64,000 nt of DNA from Winslowiella toletana (GTDB lineage: Bacteria; Pseudomonadota; Gammaproteobacteria; Enterobacterales; Enterobacteriaceae). Below, piece by piece: positions 14,528-21,302 of the stretch (within the stretch, counting starts at the first letter, position 1; each line of letters starts with the position of its first letter). The notes under the pieces were generated by a model. The model did not search any database. It was given only the letters and a program-made list of their open reading frames with translations, and was not told the origin of the DNA. Location of the stretch: the NCBI RefSeq assembly GCF_017875465.1, contig NZ_JAGGMQ010000001.1, positions 3,286,001 through 3,350,000 on the forward strand, in the 5' to 3' direction. The position numbers and the translations under genes were made by a program.

Positions 14528-14554
14528 AACGGCTCCCCAGGGAGCCGTTTTTTT
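14528..14554 (+). terminator. Rho-independent terminator of lpd
   Basis: ACGGCTCC-CCAG-GGAGCCGT stem followed by a run of T residues ending at 14554. It closes the pdh operon and meets the end of the convergent gene at 14553. Confidence 0.95.
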
Positions 14555-15665
14555 AGCTTAATCTAAGAGGAAGGTGATTTTCAGGATTACGTCGCAAGGT
14601 CACATCTGCAGCCAGACTGTTTATATCCCCGATATTGTTTTGGCTAATCTTGTTTTCACCATTTTTATCGGTACACAGTTCAACATTAATGCTGTATGCA
14701 TCTGTCATACTCGCGATGCTAATCGGATCACCGTTTGTCTTATCGAAGTTATGATCCGAACTGGTAAAATTGAATTCTCTTGCTATTACGACAAATTTAC
14801 CTGCTTCTGCTTTCTGATGTTGGTTAATCAGCTCAGCAGAGAAAATATTTGTTGCTTTCATCGATACAACATATTTTTCAGATGAATGTAATGTTTTATA
14901 ATTTAAATTTACCGATGTTGCAATGCAATCAAGTGCCTGTACTTTAATTCCCTTGAATTGTGCAGTGAAGATTAGAGCTTTGAGCCTTCCTGTATTATCA
15001 ATAAAATCCAGGTAATTGATCAAGTTATCAGGTATAAAATAACCTGAACCTATATGTTTGTTCACCTCGTCAAGGTACTGTTGATGTACTTCACTTACCA
15101 AACCTGAAAGATAAATTTTTTTGACATTGTTATCACCGAGAGTCTGTATATTTTGGATGATAAAATCTATGGGTAAGGTATTGCCAGGGTCTTTATAAAC
15201 TACAATTCCACTACTATCAGTTAGCATAGAATTAATCAGTGCTCTTTCATTATCGATGTCCGAACTTTTATTGGGGGTATTAATTTTCGCCTGAGGCTTT
15301 ATAACGTAACTTTTGGCAAGTTCGGTATGTTTTTCCTTAAGGGAATCTCTCTTCTCCTTAATGAGAATGTTTAGCAAGTGCATATCACGTACTGATATAT
15401 CTTTATCAGTGAGGTGGTCTGTTGTTAGTATTTTTTCAGCGACAATTTCCTTAGTTCGTTGGTTGGGAATTAGAAAGTTTTCGTACCCGGTTAAGTCTTT
15501 AGTTTTAAATTCATTATTCTTGACATTAATACTGTAAAGTTCTGCGCCAGCTGTATTTACGCTCTGCATAGAGAATTTCCATGTTAATAATGATTTCCAA
15601 AATATATCTGTTAATGTAATGGTGCTGATATAAAAAAACGCTGAAATATTTTCCATGCTTAGCAT
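14553..15665 (-). CDS. Unrecognised protein resembling a degenerate TIKI/ChaN-like toxin domain
   Basis: I do not know this gene by name. The open frame gives 370 residues. An internal ATG at 15569 (338 residues, MQSVNTAGAELY) may be the true start, since the first 32 residues look unlike the rest. Residues about 150-330 follow, in order, the pattern I know from the TIKI/ChaN-like domain of large membrane-targeted effector toxins: KKIYLSGLVSEVHQQYLDE, IPDNLINYLDFID, GIKVQALDCIATS, then a VVIAREF strand. In those proteins the first strand carries GExH and the last GNxH. Here they read YKDPGN (157-162) and AREFNF (295-300), so catalytic function is probably lost. The DNA is clearly AT-richer than its neighbours, suggesting transfer. 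It is not a secreted protein by visible signal. Confidence 0.5.
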   Translation of the reverse strand: MLSMENISAFFYISTITLTDIFWKSLLTWKFSMQSVNTAGAELYSINVKNNEFKTKDLTGYENFLIPNQRTKEIVAEKILTTDHLTDKDISVRDMHLLNILIKEKRDSLKEKHTELAKSYVIKPQAKINTPNKSSDIDNERALINSMLTDSSGIVVYKDPGNTLPIDFIIQNIQTLGDNNVKKIYLSGLVSEVHQQYLDEVNKHIGSGYFIPDNLINYLDFIDNTGRLKALIFTAQFKGIKVQALDCIATSVNLNYKTLHSSEKYVVSMKATNIFSAELINQHQKAEAGKFVVIAREFNFTSSDHNFDKTNGDPISIASMTDAYSINVELCTDKNGENKISQNNIGDINSLAADVTLRRNPENHLPLRLS

Positions 15666-15735: not shown

Positions 15736-18432
15736 TCAGAACCACTGACCAAAACGACGGATATAGAGTTGTTTCATGCCCTGGCTTAACAGGCAGTAAC
15801 CCAGCAGGGTCGCCAGCAGCCATGGGAAGTAACTTAATGGCAGCGCCTGTAAACCAAACCAGCTATTAACTGGTGAGAACGGTAAACCGATGCCGATTAC
15901 CACCACCAGCACGGTGGCCAGCATAACTGGCCAGCTGGCGCGTGCCTGAATAAACGGGATCTTCTGGGTGCGCAACATATGTACTACCAGCGTTTGTGAC
16001 AGCAAGCCTTCGATAAACCAGCCAGACTGAAACAGAGTCTGATGATCAACGCTGTTAGCGCCGAAAATATGCCACATCAGCGCAAAGGTGGTGATATCAA
16101 AAATTGACGAAGTGGGTCCCATCCACAACATAAAACGCCCGATATTTTTCGCATCCCATTGGCGTGGCTGGCGTACAAACTCCTTATCCATTTTGTCCCA
16201 CGGCAGCGCCAGCTGTGAGATATCGTAAATCAGGTTCTGCAACAGCAGCTGAATCGCCAGCATCGGTAAAAATGGAATAAAGGCGCTGGCGACCAGAATG
16301 GAAAACACATTGCCGAAATTGGAGCTGGCGGTGATATTCAGATACTTAATGATATTGCCAAAGGTCTGGCGACCAACCAGTACCCCTTGCTCCAGCACCA
16401 TCAGGCTCTTCTCCAGCAGAATAATATCAGCGGACTGTCTGGCGATATCGCTGGCGCTGTCGACAGAGATTCCGACATCCGCCGCGTGCAGCGCCGCCGC
16501 GTCATTAATGCCATCGCCAAGGAAGCCGACGGTATGACCGTTCTCCTGCAGCAGAGTAACCACCCGCTGTTTCTGCGCCGGGGTCAGCCTGGCAAAAATG
16601 GTATGCAGCTCTACCCTCGGTTTTAGCTGTTCATCGCTTAACTGCTCAATCTCATCACCCAGCAGCGGCACGCCGGGATCAAGATCGAGATCCCGGCAGA
16701 TTTTGGCAGTGATCAGCGGGTTATCGCCGGTCAGCACTTTGATCTGCACGCCATTATCCTGCAGCGCGCGGATCGCCGCTGCGGCGCTCTCTTTGGCTGG
16801 ATCGAGGAAGGTCAGCATGCCGCACAGGGTTAAATCGCGCTCATCGTCCGATGTCAGGCGCTGATGCCAGCCGCTGCTATTTAATTTACGGATGGCGATT
16901 AGCAGCACCCGATAGCCCTGCTGATTGAAGTCGGCGGCCCGCTGTATAATTTCTGCACGCCATGCCTCATCGATCGCCACCACCTGACCGTTCTGCTGCA
17001 GATGGGTGGTGATTGCCAGCATCTCTTCCACTGCGCCTTTGCAGATCAACTGATGCTGTCCCTGATCGTCACTCAGGGAAACCGACAGACGACGGCGGCT
17101 GAAATCGAACGGCAGTTCGTCGACTTTGCGGAGATGACGCGGCAAGTCGTGGTACTGGCGCGCAAACGCCACCACGGCGCGATCCATCAGATTTTTATGT
17201 CCGCTCTGATGAAAACTGTTCAACCACGCCAGTTCCAGCACCCTGCGGCAGGGGCGGCCGAGAATATCCAGATGGTGCTCCAGCGCAATATGATCCTGCG
17301 TCAGAGTGCCGGTTTTATCAGTACAAAGCACATCCATCGCGCCAAAGTTCTGGATAGCATTCAGCCGTTTGACCACCACTTTGCGGCGCGCCATCGCCAT
17401 CGCGCCTTTGGCCAGATTGGTGCTGACAATCATTGGCAGCATCTCAGGCGTCAGACCGACGGCGACGGCGACGGCAAACAGGGTGGCATCCAGCCAGTCG
17501 CCTTTAGTGAAGCCATTCAGCAACAGCACCACTGGCACCATAACGGCCATAAAACGGATCAGCAGCCAGCTGACGCTATTTACGCCGCGGTCAAAAGAGG
17601 TGGGAGGGCGTTTGCCAATAATATTTTTTGCCAGCGAACCAAACCAGCTGCGGGTGCCGGTGGCGACCACCACCGCAGTGGCGTGGCCGCTGACCACATT
17701 GGTGCCCATCAGGCAGATATTTGTTAAGCCGGGCAGCGCGCCTTCACCAATATCGTGCGGCGTCTGCGTGGGTTCCGTCAGACAATATTTTTCCACCGGT
17801 AAGGCTTCGCCAGTCAGCGCTGCCTGACTGACCAGCAGGTCATGTGATTTAACCAGCTTGATATCGGCAGGAATAATATCGCCAGCTGACAGTGAGATGA
17901 TATCTCCTGGCACCAGCTGCTGCTGGTTGACGTAGATCCACTGTGGTTTGCTGTTATCGCCATGGCGGCGCAGGGTGGTGACCTGAGTGGATACCAGCGA
18001 TTTCAGCGCATCGGCCGCCTGATTGGTGCGGAACTCCTGCCAGAAGCGCAGTACCCCGCTCAGGGTAATCATTATCAGCATAATGGTTACGCCAGTCAGA
18101 TCGGTTTCTTCACCCTGCTGCGCCGGTAGCCAGTAGTCGGTGAAGAAACTGATGCCAGCCAGACCCATCAGTACAAAAATAAACGGATTATTAAACGCCA
18201 TCAGCAGCTGAATCAGGACGTGCGGCGCTTTTTCCTCCGCCACCTGATTCAGGCCAGACTGTTGCAAACGCGCGGCCGCCTGGCGGGCGCTCAGTCCCTG
18301 CGGACTGCTGTTGAGTGTGGCAAAGGTGCTGTCGAGGCTGACCTGCGCCTCACGGGCAATCGGCCACGCCTGAGTGGGGCGATTTTTGTTGTGGCGGCGC
18401 GTTTGCTGCGTACTATCGATCATCTGAGTCAT
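15736..18432 (-). CDS. mgtA: Magnesium-importing P-type ATPase MgtA
   Basis: P3B-type ATPase of the inner membrane that imports Mg2+ under limitation. It has 898 residues, the same as E. coli MgtA. Phosphorylated D372 is in LCTDKTGTLTQD, the actuator motif is TGEALPVEK (about 207-215), the hinge is VGFLGDGINDAAAL, and membrane pairs lie near residues 70-130, 285-335 and the C-terminal six-helix block. The closely related MgtB is an alternative name. No mgtC lies beside it. In E. coli mgtA is elsewhere on the chromosome, so its place between lpd and acnB is unusual. A roughly 410-nt leader with a short peptide precedes it. Confidence 0.93.
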   Translation of the reverse strand: MTQMIDSTQQTRRHNKNRPTQAWPIAREAQVSLDSTFATLNSSPQGLSARQAAARLQQSGLNQVAEEKAPHVLIQLLMAFNNPFIFVLMGLAGISFFTDYWLPAQQGEETDLTGVTIMLIMITLSGVLRFWQEFRTNQAADALKSLVSTQVTTLRRHGDNSKPQWIYVNQQQLVPGDIISLSAGDIIPADIKLVKSHDLLVSQAALTGEALPVEKYCLTEPTQTPHDIGEGALPGLTNICLMGTNVVSGHATAVVVATGTRSWFGSLAKNIIGKRPPTSFDRGVNSVSWLLIRFMAVMVPVVLLLNGFTKGDWLDATLFAVAVAVGLTPEMLPMIVSTNLAKGAMAMARRKVVVKRLNAIQNFGAMDVLCTDKTGTLTQDHIALEHHLDILGRPCRRVLELAWLNSFHQSGHKNLMDRAVVAFARQYHDLPRHLRKVDELPFDFSRRRLSVSLSDDQGQHQLICKGAVEEMLAITTHLQQNGQVVAIDEAWRAEIIQRAADFNQQGYRVLLIAIRKLNSSGWHQRLTSDDERDLTLCGMLTFLDPAKESAAAAIRALQDNGVQIKVLTGDNPLITAKICRDLDLDPGVPLLGDEIEQLSDEQLKPRVELHTIFARLTPAQKQRVVTLLQENGHTVGFLGDGINDAAALHAADVGISVDSASDIARQSADIILLEKSLMVLEQGVLVGRQTFGNIIKYLNITASSNFGNVFSILVASAFIPFLPMLAIQLLLQNLIYDISQLALPWDKMDKEFVRQPRQWDAKNIGRFMLWMGPTSSIFDITTFALMWHIFGANSVDHQTLFQSGWFIEGLLSQTLVVHMLRTQKIPFIQARASWPVMLATVLVVVIGIGLPFSPVNSWFGLQALPLSYFPWLLATLLGYCLLSQGMKQLYIRRFGQWF

Positions 18433-18488
18433 CTGTTGCTACTCCAAATTCTGCGCACGGCAATCTCTCTCAAATTGAGATAGTCGTG

Positions 18489-18557
18489 AAAAAAAGAGTG
18501 CGTTGCAGATGGGAAAGGAACTAGCTCACTGCTCCCTTGCAACGCGGATTACGTTGC
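18489..18557 (-). promoter_or_regulatory. Attenuator in the mgtA leader: two competing hairpins and a U-run
   Basis: Minus-strand RNA. Segment CGTTGC (18544-18539) can pair upstream with GCAACG (18557-18552, 7-nt loop). Alternatively, extended as GCGTTGCA (18545-18538), it can pair downstream with TGCAACGC (18507-18500), with four further pairs GGGA/TCCC above an internal loop. The second stem is followed after 4 nt by seven T residues (18495-18489), so it looks like an intrinsic terminator, and the first like its antiterminator. Both overlap the leader peptide frame, the classical attenuation layout. Pairing is read directly from the sequence. The switching mechanism is inference. Confidence 0.7.
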
Positions 18558-18577
18558 GTACTGGGGTGCTCGTCCAT
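18521..18577 (-). CDS. Leader peptide of mgtA (MgtL-like role)
   Basis: Eighteen codons, MDEHPSTQRNPRCKGAVS, with an excellent ribosome site (AAGGAG, 5 nt before ATG), 88 nt before mgtA. Known biology: E. coli/Salmonella mgtA has a short proline-rich leader peptide, MgtL, whose acidic and proline codons near the start destabilise ribosomes at low Mg2+. This peptide also begins with Asp-Glu and has two prolines, but is otherwise unlike MgtL. Its second half and stop codon lie inside the competing hairpins, so its translation could decide whether mgtA is transcribed. Confidence 0.7.
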   Translation of the reverse strand: MDEHPSTQRNPRCKGAVS

Positions 18578-18840
18578 AGGGACTCCTTAACTGATAATGG
18601 TAATAACCTGAATAGCAGGATCGGTTACAGAGAGCTGCGCATCAGGCGCAGCCGATAGCCGCTTGGGCATCAGCCCGGAGGAAAAAGGGTATGGGTAAAT
18701 TTCAGTATCATAATGACTCGTCCGGGTAGCAGTGGAGCAGCAGACGAGTTAACCGATCGCTGCTTGCCAGGGTGGCAAGCAACAGGCTTGCCTTAATGGG
18801 TTTGGTTACTGTCCAAAAAGGTTGCTCCACGTGATTAAAC
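18578..18840 (-). promoter_or_regulatory. Structured 5' leader of mgtA, upstream half
   Basis: The leader RNA from about 18840 holds several stems, for example GGCAAGC-N5-GCTTGCC near 18788-18770 and CTGCGC-CTGAT-GCGCAG near 18654-18638. Two further small frames are open: 18711-18670 (MILKFTHTLFPPG, ending Pro-Pro-Gly-stop), and a 27-codon frame starting in its TGATG overlap and ending just before the ribosome site of the leader peptide. Neither has a good ribosome site. They are recorded as candidates only. Confidence 0.4.
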
Positions 18841-18847
18841 GACAGGC

Positions 18848-18876
18848 ACTATACGCCCGGCCTGTTGGGCTGTAAA
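18848..18876 (-). promoter_or_regulatory. Candidate mgtA promoter
   Basis: Minus strand: TTTACA (18876-18871), 17 bp, TATAGT (18853-18848), giving a start near 18840 and a leader of about 410 nt. GGTTAA and GATTTA half-sites lie just upstream and on the -35, but not in the 5-bp-spaced arrangement of a PhoP box. Confidence 0.6.
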
Positions 18877-18953: not shown

Positions 18954-21302
18954 TTACGTCTGTAGCAGATAGCGGATAAGCATATCCGGGTTAAATCCGC
19001 TAATACAATCACTGTCATTTTGGCTGATGCCGGTTTCTTTCAGACGCAGGCACCATGCTGGCCAGTCTTCGCCAGGGCGGAAAGCATGCGCGCCACCTGT
19101 CGGGGAATTAATTTCGTCCCGGATCATTTTACCCGCAGGCGATAACTGTTTTCGCAGCCCTAAACGGGTATCAATCACAGAACAACTTTCGTCACATACT
19201 TGCATTATATCGGTCCCGCTCAGTCCTTCGTCCATATTGCCGAGACGTTCTATCCATTCAGAGGGGGTTTCATCACCAAAGCGTTTATAGGGATTCCAGT
19301 CCGACGAATTCAGCCTGTTCTGCAATCTTTTGCCACTGTCCGACAAACCTGATTTATGCGCCTTCCATAGCCTTATCAGCAAAAAACTATTGCCGCCGGT
19401 TATCAACACCAAATCATCCACTGTCAGTTCAGGTTGTTGTTTGATTAATCTGCTTGCCCAGCGGTAATTGGTTTCATCTTCTTTCCACGCATAATCGCCC
19501 GGCATATCTGAGTCGATAATTTGCATCGTATGCTTGCCGTGATCGCTAAGCGCGCTGCGAAATTGCTGCGGAAAAGCATTTATTTCATCGGTAGTGACCT
19601 TCACCAGGTCTTTAATATCGTTTTCTGTCAGCAATAATCCAAGTTTGCGTGCAATGAGCAGCAGCTCCCTGATTCTTATAATTGGCATCGATGAGCTATT
19701 CAGTTTTATTTTTCTGCTGTTGATTAATCGCTCTATTTTTTCACCATCGCCGGAAAGATCGCTTATCGTAATCACGACAGGCTGTGCCTGAGAACGGGAA
19801 GGTTTACCGGTAAGCTTTAACAGCCTCAAAGGGGGAGGAAACGTCACCCGGGATGGCCCGGTAACCGCAGGTAAATTATCGCGCGGGGGGGGCAATAGCG
19901 CTGAAAAATGGTTACCGATATTCAGGATATGTATCTCGCGTGCATTAGCCTCAAAGGAACCCAAAATGGCCTGGGATTCCTTTTCGGCGATAAAGCTATG
20001 GCTGATAACCCGTATTGGGTGTCTGAAACGATCCAGTAAATCCTGATTAAGCATTTCCACTAAGGCCGCCGCTGCGCCTGCCGGCTTGAACAGGATATTG
20101 CCATCCAGAAAAAAACCATGCGCATGCCCCTGCCAGCCTTGCAGCACCAGCCGCTGACGATATTTATTTACCTGCGCCATTAGCCATTTGCTTTGCGAGT
20201 ATTCACGCGTCGTGAGCTGTAACAAGGCGATCGGCAGCGAATTATTATAATCGGTGCCGCTGCTGCCATTATTATGCAATTGAGTCCAGCCCTGCTGTTT
20301 GAGAAAACGCTCGACGTGCGCACCATTCTCTGGCTGAAAAAGATTGCGCTTTTGCTGGATAGCCCGAATCACGCCACTGACGTTCGTGCCGGAACGCGCC
20401 GCGCGCTGCCACGGCGAGGTCAAAGAGGTGGCGGTTATCCGTTTGGAACGCGGGGTGATCACCGGATCTTCCTGCAACAGTTTATTTGCCGGATAACGTT
20501 TCTGGATTTCGGGCGTAAAACCGGTGAGGGTGATAACTTCCTGTTCTGACAGATAGGGCGCCAGTTTTTTTAGCCGGACAACCCAATATGGCCACTCTTC
20601 GCCCAGCTGAAAGTCCATCCCTTCCGGGTTCGTTGAATGGATATAATTCATCACTCGCAGCCCGGCTTCCGATAATGGTTGCCGCTGCAGTAAATGAAGG
20701 TTTAACAGGATAAGGTTGATGTCTTTCAGTTTACTAAAGTCACTATATTTCAGACGCTGATCCATATTGCTCACCCGCAGCGCCCATTCAAGGTTGGTTT
20801 CTCCGGCTAATTGTTTCCAGGGACTCCAGTGCGGAGAGTTGAGCCTCTCTTCCAGCTCCTTACCCGCTGCCGTCAGATGCTTATTTTCCAGCGGGGCCAT
20901 TGCGCCCATATGGCGGTAGCAGGGAAGAATCTCTTCCAGGGTTTGAGGCGAAAGCCCGGATGGCTGTTGCCGCAATGCATGCTGAAGCGTTGAAATTATC
21001 GGTGGTCCTTCCGGGGGAGCAGCAGGCGGTAACGGTAATGGCGGGTATGAAAGAAGCCCGCTATTTTGAAACCCTGGTGTCGGATAGTTGGTTGCTGTAA
21101 ATGCTGGTGAAAGAGGGGGGATAAAGTTCTGCCTGGCTGACAAAGGTGGTGGCGCTGACCATGCTGCCATATTTAACGGACTTTGCATCACCTGCGAAAG
21201 CTGATGGATCATTGGCATATCGGAGGCTGAAAAGTGGGCATTTGTGTTTAGCGCTATAAGCCGTTCATCAGCATTCGGAGGGATACGGTCAATTCTCTTC
21301 AC
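18954..21302 (-). CDS. Unrecognised 782-residue protein with repeated modules and an OTU-like centre
   Basis: I do not know this gene by name. The N-terminus (1-100) is proline-rich and low in structure, like a secreted effector, without a cleavable signal. Two copies of a module of about 130 residues flank a central domain: 142-270 and 653-780. Each has LSxxGxxLxxRLNS-W-P, then EWxxRLxNMDxxL, then LSxAGxxVxxxINS, GEEWPxWxxRLK and TGFxPDxxxRY. The centre (about 330-470) resembles the OTU cysteine-protease layout: D351-x-x-N-S355, a WxG then helical ALVEML, HPIRVIS, and GNHFSALLP with H465. Position 355, where OTU enzymes have the nucleophilic Cys, is Ser. A type III or other contact-dependent effector, or an inactive relative, is possible. 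This is inference from pattern. Confidence 0.5.
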   Translation of the reverse strand: MKRIDRIPPNADERLIALNTNAHFSASDMPMIHQLSQVMQSPLNMAAWSAPPPLSARQNFIPPLSPAFTATNYPTPGFQNSGLLSYPPLPLPPAAPPEGPPIISTLQHALRQQPSGLSPQTLEEILPCYRHMGAMAPLENKHLTAAGKELEERLNSPHWSPWKQLAGETNLEWALRVSNMDQRLKYSDFSKLKDINLILLNLHLLQRQPLSEAGLRVMNYIHSTNPEGMDFQLGEEWPYWVVRLKKLAPYLSEQEVITLTGFTPEIQKRYPANKLLQEDPVITPRSKRITATSLTSPWQRAARSGTNVSGVIRAIQQKRNLFQPENGAHVERFLKQQGWTQLHNNGSSGTDYNNSLPIALLQLTTREYSQSKWLMAQVNKYRQRLVLQGWQGHAHGFFLDGNILFKPAGAAAALVEMLNQDLLDRFRHPIRVISHSFIAEKESQAILGSFEANAREIHILNIGNHFSALLPPPRDNLPAVTGPSRVTFPPPLRLLKLTGKPSRSQAQPVVITISDLSGDGEKIERLINSRKIKLNSSSMPIIRIRELLLIARKLGLLLTENDIKDLVKVTTDEINAFPQQFRSALSDHGKHTMQIIDSDMPGDYAWKEDETNYRWASRLIKQQPELTVDDLVLITGGNSFLLIRLWKAHKSGLSDSGKRLQNRLNSSDWNPYKRFGDETPSEWIERLGNMDEGLSGTDIMQVCDESCSVIDTRLGLRKQLSPAGKMIRDEINSPTGGAHAFRPGEDWPAWCLRLKETGISQNDSDCISGFNPDMLIRYLLQT

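Follow-up and report, generated by a model that had tools for sequence, protein, structure and literature searches.

A probable mgtQ-type leader switch in front of an mgtB-type Mg2+ ATPase gene of Winslowiella toletana

The window, which is the whole 64,000-nucleotide stretch of Winslowiella toletana DNA analysed here, carries a long leader on the minus strand in front of a gene for an Mg2+-translocating P-type ATPase. The last element of this leader is probably an mgtQ-type translation-abortion switch, set in a composite mgtM–mgtP–mgtQ leader that feeds mgtB directly, without mgtC. Conservation of the short ORF, the alternative pairings, the place before mgtB, the mgtM/mgtP/mgtQ order, and the absence of mgtC were observed directly. 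Ribosome destabilisation, the sign of control, and a response to Mg2+ would follow by analogy with Salmonella. The features used below are listed in the order of transcription.

18848..18876, minus strand: candidate promoter hexamers TTTACA-17-TATAGT (consensus scan alone, 1 found vs 0.6 expected)
18793..18816, minus strand: mgtM-like ORF with a TTG start, 7 codons, (M)DSNQTH; SD GGAG at 18828-18825
18762..18792, minus strand: three-part repeat GGCAAGC/GCTTGCC/GGCAAGC of the mgtM module, able to fold into either of two hairpins; no stem letter differs among the four clade members
18717..18748, minus strand: hairpin CTCGTCTG...CGGACGAG before the mgtP-like ORF, retained in the four clade members
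18670..18711, minus strand: mgtP-like ORF MILKFTHTLFPPG, resembling the proline codon-rich mgtP in the passages of PMC3641672
18588-18583, minus strand: SD AAGGAG of the mgtQ-like ORF, by direct reading
18521..18577, minus strand: mgtQ-like ORF MDEHPSTQRNPRCKGAVS, 18 sense codons, ATG at 18577, TAG ending at 18521
18551..18557, minus strand: region 1 (GCAACGT), pairs with region 2 through GCAACG at 18557-18552
18538..18545, minus strand: region 2 (GCGTTGCA), partner of either region 1 or region 3; CGTTGC at 18544-18539
18500..18511, minus strand: region 3 (CATCTGCAACGC), of which TGCAACGC at 18507-18500 pairs with region 2
18489..18495, minus strand: U7 run, 4 nt past stem 2:3, 0/7 columns variable among the four clade members
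18430..18445, minus strand: region 4, the mgtB SD GGAGT and the CAGATG start; duplex with region 3 of -10.5 kcal/mol, shuffle p 0.28
15736..18432, minus strand: mgtB-type Mg2+-translocating P-type ATPase, 898 aa (NCBIfam PRK15122, 1533.5 bits; TIGR01524, 1348.9 bits)

The ATPase gene and the composite leader

The 898-aa ATPase was the sole full-length match in its own genome. By sequence comparison it is of the mgtB type, because it has 66% identity to MgtB from a Serratia marcescens plasmid, whose gene stands next to mgtC, vs 51% identity over residues 34-895 to an E. coli MgtA encoded beside mgtL. The first-pass annotation had called the gene mgtA, a name that these values speak against; it is an understandable one, since mgtA is the name given to such proteins in many database records. 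Among 12 listed rows with 63-67% identity, ten carried the symbol mgtA, one mgtB, and one had no symbol. No MgtC match was obtained upstream of the mgtQ-like ORF in the window or in the related loci L088, L089, and L090, and the MgtC gene of the genome itself is situated elsewhere.

The surroundings of mgtB varied among the five stretches examined for gene order. In L159 and L160, mgtB adjoins both lpdA and acnB, and in L161 it adjoins acnB, with the contig ending on the other side. L162 has acnB as the only one of the two neighbors (lpdA being absent from 6 kb of the opposite flank) and L163 has lpdA only (acnB being absent from 8 kb of the opposite flank). The window has an ORF of 782 aa (18954-21302, minus strand) that lies between acnB and the mgtB leader and gave no NCBIfam match and no Pfam match above cut-off. 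This ORF has 54-59% identity in L159, where a second, weaker match suggests internal repetition, and no match in L160-L163. An ORF of 370 aa on the other side of mgtB (14553-15665, minus strand) gave a Pfam match to the Pasteurella multocida toxin C2 domain below cut-off (20.8 bits, cut-off 27) and no match in L159-L163. In L008, from Enterobacillus tribolii, Rfam placed a RyhB small RNA gene close to the mgtB locus, at 247-313 on the minus strand (89.3 bits).

Judged by their letters, counterparts of mgtM, mgtP, and mgtQ follow one another in the window leader in that order, minus mgtC. Both candidate promoter hexamers, TTTACA and TATAGT, are retained in L088-L090; a look by eye for a PhoP box found no clear 11-nt direct repeat. 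An mgtM-like ORF with SD was recovered by regular expression in 19 of 32 related leaders, and L088 has one that was seen by eye and missed by this search. The start codon of Salmonella mgtM is UUG as well, according to PMC6908480. In the hairpin at 18717..18748, CGGACGAG becomes CAGACGAG in L089 and L090, turning a U-G pair into U-A. A short LFPP ORF occurs in 27 of the 32 leaders. Eight of the 32 have mgtC between mgtP and mgtQ, PF02308 being confirmed for one (L127).

This arrangement resembles the mgtM/mgtP tandem attenuator of the mgtCBR leader (RF02887; Lee and Groisman 2012, PMC3641672, where mgtP is called proline codon-rich): an ORF starting with UUG is followed by GGCAAGC/GCTTGCC hairpins and then by an ORF with Pro codons (LFPPG). 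Unlike that system, the window module sits on mgtB without mgtC, has two consecutive Pro codons instead of three, and is missed by RF02887 on the leader strand. The mgtC_leader model (RF02887) scored 16.1 bits in the window on the opposite strand, vs a gathering threshold of 48, and we do not use this match as support. Among six loci searched with it, L129 (37.1 bits), L127 (35.9 bits), and L008 (24.1 bits) all remained below 48, and L001, L122, and L124 gave no match. The other Rfam match on the window leader was a chance one to bxd_6, and no Mg-sensor family was among the matches.

Conservation of the mgtQ-like ORF

Direct reading of the SD, the ATG, and the TAG bears out the well-initiated 18-codon leader peptide that had been proposed at the outset. 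The window leader (L001) forms a four-member clade with L088, L089, and L090, all congeneric. These share the leader, and their mgtB identities to the window are 93%, 84%, and 84%, respectively. When the leaders were aligned, as the first-pass annotation had suggested, the ORF, both pairings, and U7 recurred in L088, L089, and L090. Codons 2-5 change once among the four members, synonymously, vs 24 variable columns of 89 from the stop codon to the mgtB start. The acidic and Pro-containing peptide start (MDEHP) before an Mg2+ P-type ATPase, another early claim, thus held in relatives. Within the genus, the ATPase was present in 30 of the 37 genomes searched, most of them with a differing leader ORF of the MKEPP type.

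Beyond the genus, a DNA search with the leader matched 10 of 295 family genomes. The pattern of SD plus ATGGANGANCANCC was found in 31 of 392 family genomes (14 of 154 genera), its reversed control in one genome, and a sample of 394 genomes from the order gave 7 with the same pattern. A further count did not use the leader as bait and covered 107 distinct regions of 300 bases in front of mgtB relatives. Of these, 45 contained a short ORF led by an SD and having both an acidic residue and a Pro near its start, vs 1 of 5256 control windows taken from the same loci. Under the strict rule, 62 regions lacked such an ORF. By record title, 39 of these lie outside Enterobacterales (17 Pseudomonas and 5 Burkholderia among them) and 23 belong to Enterobacterales or the same genus, including Brenneria, Edwardsiella, Rahnella, Gilliamella, and some Pantoea. 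Four of the regions negative by the strict rule (L054, L067, L095, and L106) contain the ORF under a looser SD rule.

In many Enterobacterales, ORFs with the SD AAGGAG lie directly before mgtB and begin with MDEHP, MDDHP, MKEPP, and similar residues. Among 19 distinct ORFs of the form M[DE]xxP, a rule that fixes codons 2 and 5 by choice, codon 5 was CCC in 14 and CCT in 5, and codon 3 was acidic in 16, by four different codons. Codon usage of this kind points to a peptide-level constraint on the early acidic and Pro residues. An annotated Serratia plasmid has the order mgtC, then a MDDDPGRKMIPAWLTG ORF with the SD TAAGGAGG, then mgtB; from its sequence and place, this ORF is the equivalent of the mgtQ-like ORF of the window.

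The leaders L091-L115 of the same genus have MKEPP-type mgtQ-like ORFs upstream of mgtB. In these, CCTCC (within the Glu-Pro-Pro codons), GGAGG, and CCTCC could form, with an mgtB SD of the AAGGAG kind, a series of SD mimics and anti-SDs. Every piece of this series is present in some of them only, and few have significant 2:3 helices.

The mgtQ of the Salmonella mgtCBRU operon is an 8-codon ORF between mgtC and mgtB, with Asp2, Pro4, and Glu5, as given by Choi et al. 2021 (PMC8092293). The same authors name orthologs in Erwinia tasmaniensis, Yersinia, and Serratia. They describe 1:2 with 3:4 as the state that covers the mgtB RBS, and 2:3 as the ON state in which the RBS is free. Acidic codons (Asp/Glu) are described there as lowering mgtQ translation and raising mgtB translation, an effect counteracted by L31 (rpmE1) in the model, and loss of the mgtQ start codon as reducing mgtB translation with transcription unchanged. 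Like Salmonella mgtQ, the window ORF is short, has a strong SD, stands directly before mgtB, and contains Asp2, a second acidic residue close to it, and a Pro near the N-terminus; its predicted alternative stems also reach towards the mgtB start site. It differs in having 18 codons vs 8, acidic residues at positions 2 and 3, no upstream mgtC, a U7 run behind 2:3, and a weaker predicted 3:4 pairing. The first-pass annotation had taken the element for a different molecular solution to Mg2+ sensing; given the match to the known mgtQ of the Salmonella mgtC-mgtB intergenic region, that view does not stand. Early acidic and Pro codons before an Mg2+ ATPase gene are also common to the MgtL/mgtA leader of E. 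coli and Salmonella, which is unlike the window leader in preceding the other ATPase type (51% identity) and, according to the passages of PMC3641672, in being Rho-dependent.

Stems, the U7 run, and competing explanations

The mutually exclusive stems overlapping the ORF, also part of the first-pass proposal, were confirmed by direct reading. CGTTGC pairs either upstream, with 18557-18552, or downstream, with GCAACG at 18506-18501, the latter within the 8-bp helix GCGTTGCA/TGCAACGC (-19.7 kcal/mol). Region 3 can instead use CATCTG and the following GCACTCT to pair with the mgtB AUG and SD. As single sequences, the folds are unremarkable: for 93 nt, z was -1.13 and 29 of 200 shuffles were as stable, and for 176 nt, z was -1.51 with 11 of 200. 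It is conservation that makes the element more than chance. A helix from the end of the ORF to downstream sequence reached p<=0.05 vs shuffles in 26 of 73 distinct leaders, with about 4 expected, although related leaders are not independent and the same-genus MKEPP-type leaders mostly miss p<=0.05. The shuffle test takes the place of covariation, since the stems hardly vary among near relatives and distant leaders can be aligned only by assuming the helix.

Partition-function folding of the free RNA cut just after region 3 gave P(2:3) values of 0.97, 0.97, 0.41, and 0.96 for L001, L088, L089, and L090; P(1:2) was 0.03 in three of the four and 0.59 in L089. With a ribosome on codons 2-5, P(2:3) was at least 0.95 in all four members, and on codons 9-17 it was 0.00. 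For the whole leader, the free minimum-energy fold contained 1:2 in L001, L089, and L090, and 2:3 in L088. The L001 fold combined 1:2 with pairing of region 3 to the mgtB AUG (CATCTG/CAGATG) and SD (ACTCT/GGAGT), which is not seen in L088, and masking codons 1-5 switched L001 to 2:3.

When codons 1-5 were masked, the opening cost at the mgtB start site fell in only 11 of 32 leaders, 5 of which changed by 1 kcal/mol or more, and rose by at least 1 kcal/mol in 8, the values for L146 being unreliable because its mgtB start was probably set too early. The change was 6.84 to 8.26 kcal/mol in L001, 8.91 to 6.14 in L088, 5.59 to 5.64 in L089, and 4.83 to 5.26 in L090, so within the clade opening was eased only in L088. 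Of 71 leaders, 21 showed significant complementarity (p<=0.05) of region 3 to the mgtB start site, where about 4 would be expected; L013 and L061 gave no 2:3 helix in this analysis. For the duplex of region 3 with the start site, p was 0.28 in the window and 0.13 in L088, and the best duplex of L090 lay at mgtB +14 to +23 (p 0.05). By direct reading, several relatives carry AACGC in region 3 with GCGTT ahead of the mgtB ATG, and the MKEPP-type leaders have CCTCC to set against AAGGAG. Simple thermodynamic folding thus supports the pairings, and does not clearly support a switch in start-site access; the easing in just 11 of 32 leaders weakens the translational reading.

In the preferred mgtQ-type reading, ribosomes pausing on or leaving the Asp-Glu-His-Pro codons would hold region 1 open, allowing stem 2:3 to form. 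Stem 2:3 would then keep region 3 off the mgtB SD and AUG, and MgtB would be made. If mgtQ were untranslated, or translated through with release, 1:2 and 3:4 could form, giving low mgtB translation. The clade-specific U7 behind 2:3 would be an addition, perhaps for partial termination or pausing.

The U7 run itself is confined to the clade. U>=5 within 12 bases after the helix occurred in 4 of 73 leaders, all clade members (U7 of L089 being taken from direct reading), and in none of the other 69, for some distant ones of which the helix choice is uncertain; L122, the closest outgroup compared (mgtB 73.6%), has ATCTCACTGTTTT in place of U7. Between U7 and the mgtB SD, at 18488-18456 on the minus strand, lies a further hairpin-capable stretch (CACG..CGTG with inner TCTC/GAGA), which L122 and all four clade members retain. 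The 8-bp stem followed by seven U, as first annotated, is real on both counts; the 4-nt spacer ACTC between them had gone unmentioned.

Leader ORFs overlapping mutually exclusive stems are common to the window and to classical intrinsic-terminator attenuators (trp, his). The model of the first-pass annotation takes 2:3 with U7 as an intrinsic terminator that full translation of the peptide exposes (OFF), and 1:2 as an antiterminator left by early ribosome loss at low Mg2+ (ON). Such a mechanism has some appeal: U7 is invariant in all four members as the spacer changes (3 of 4 columns variable), 2:3 is stable, the sign would suit the Mg2+ logic, and 1:2, present in most of the whole-leader free folds, is transcribed first and could persist. 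We nevertheless consider it improbable. A terminator scan allowing a 0-2 nt spacer found 0 sites, and with the 4-nt gap the tail score of U7 is 2.51, TransTermHP having a tail cut-off near 2.5. A census of 1.64 Mb from the window and fetched loci, both strands included, gave 950 T runs >=6, and 81 of them had a 7-8 bp stem within 11 nt; mostly these 81 start at 0 nt (32 of 81), and 13 of 81 start at 4 nt, four of which are the U7 element itself (in the window, L159, L160, and L161). The upstream antiterminator fares no better, as 1:2 is not favored at equilibrium in three of four members: at the decision point 2:3 dominates over 1:2, both in free RNA (3/4) and with a ribosome on codons 2-5 (4/4). 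Because of the latter value, pausing or drop-off at DEHP would favor, not prevent, the supposed terminator, unless 1:2, once formed, were kinetically trapped. The hairpin called a terminator corresponds to 2:3, the ON state in the mgtQ model as described in PMC8092293, opposite in sign to a terminator. Unlike trp and his attenuators, the window thus has a U run displaced by 4 nt and absent from the other 69 of 73 leaders, and the opposite predicted sign for an early-stalled ribosome. According to PMC3641672, the stems of the mgtCBR leader are unlike intrinsic terminators, and the mgtA leader has none. Titles and abstract openings in the literature searched named no intrinsic terminator before mgtB or in an Mg2+ leader-peptide system of this kind.

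That U7 is no terminator, and instead a site of pausing, a target of RNase E or Hfq, or a spacer following 2:3, has better prospects, though we would put it somewhat short of an even chance; it is compatible with the mgtQ-type reading. The run is conserved but badly spaced for termination, and another conserved hairpin-capable stretch follows before the mgtB SD, whereas conservation in four genomes of one genus spans a limited time. A further, rather unlikely proposal is that the mgtQ switch of the clade gained a second output, in which 2:3 with U7 would end or stall transcription when the leader ribosome is early or absent, while 2:3 opens the mgtB start site. Chance occurrence of ORF and stems before an mgtB gene without leader control would fit the unremarkable single-sequence fold, and is hardly credible against the upstream-region count (45/107 vs 1/5256), the helix count (26/73), and the pattern matches in 14 genera vs a single genome for the reversed pattern. 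Returning to the mgtQ-type switch, termination at U7 is possible within it and not likely to be the main function; the run may perhaps act as a weak terminator, in partial termination, as a pause, or otherwise.

Implications for Mg2+ leaders

The element is real, conserved, and explained in outline by mgtQ, with U7 as one small addition. All three regulatory ORFs of the Salmonella mgtCBR operon have counterparts here that stay with mgtB even without mgtC, and it is mgtQ that adjoins mgtB. The 32 related leaders offer material for testing the joint evolution of acidic/Pro peptides and RNA switching. If the second-output proposal were true, one hairpin would act oppositely on transcription and translation. 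If U7 ends transcription, the clade would be a case, within one family, of a leader gaining a transcriptional output on top of a translational one.
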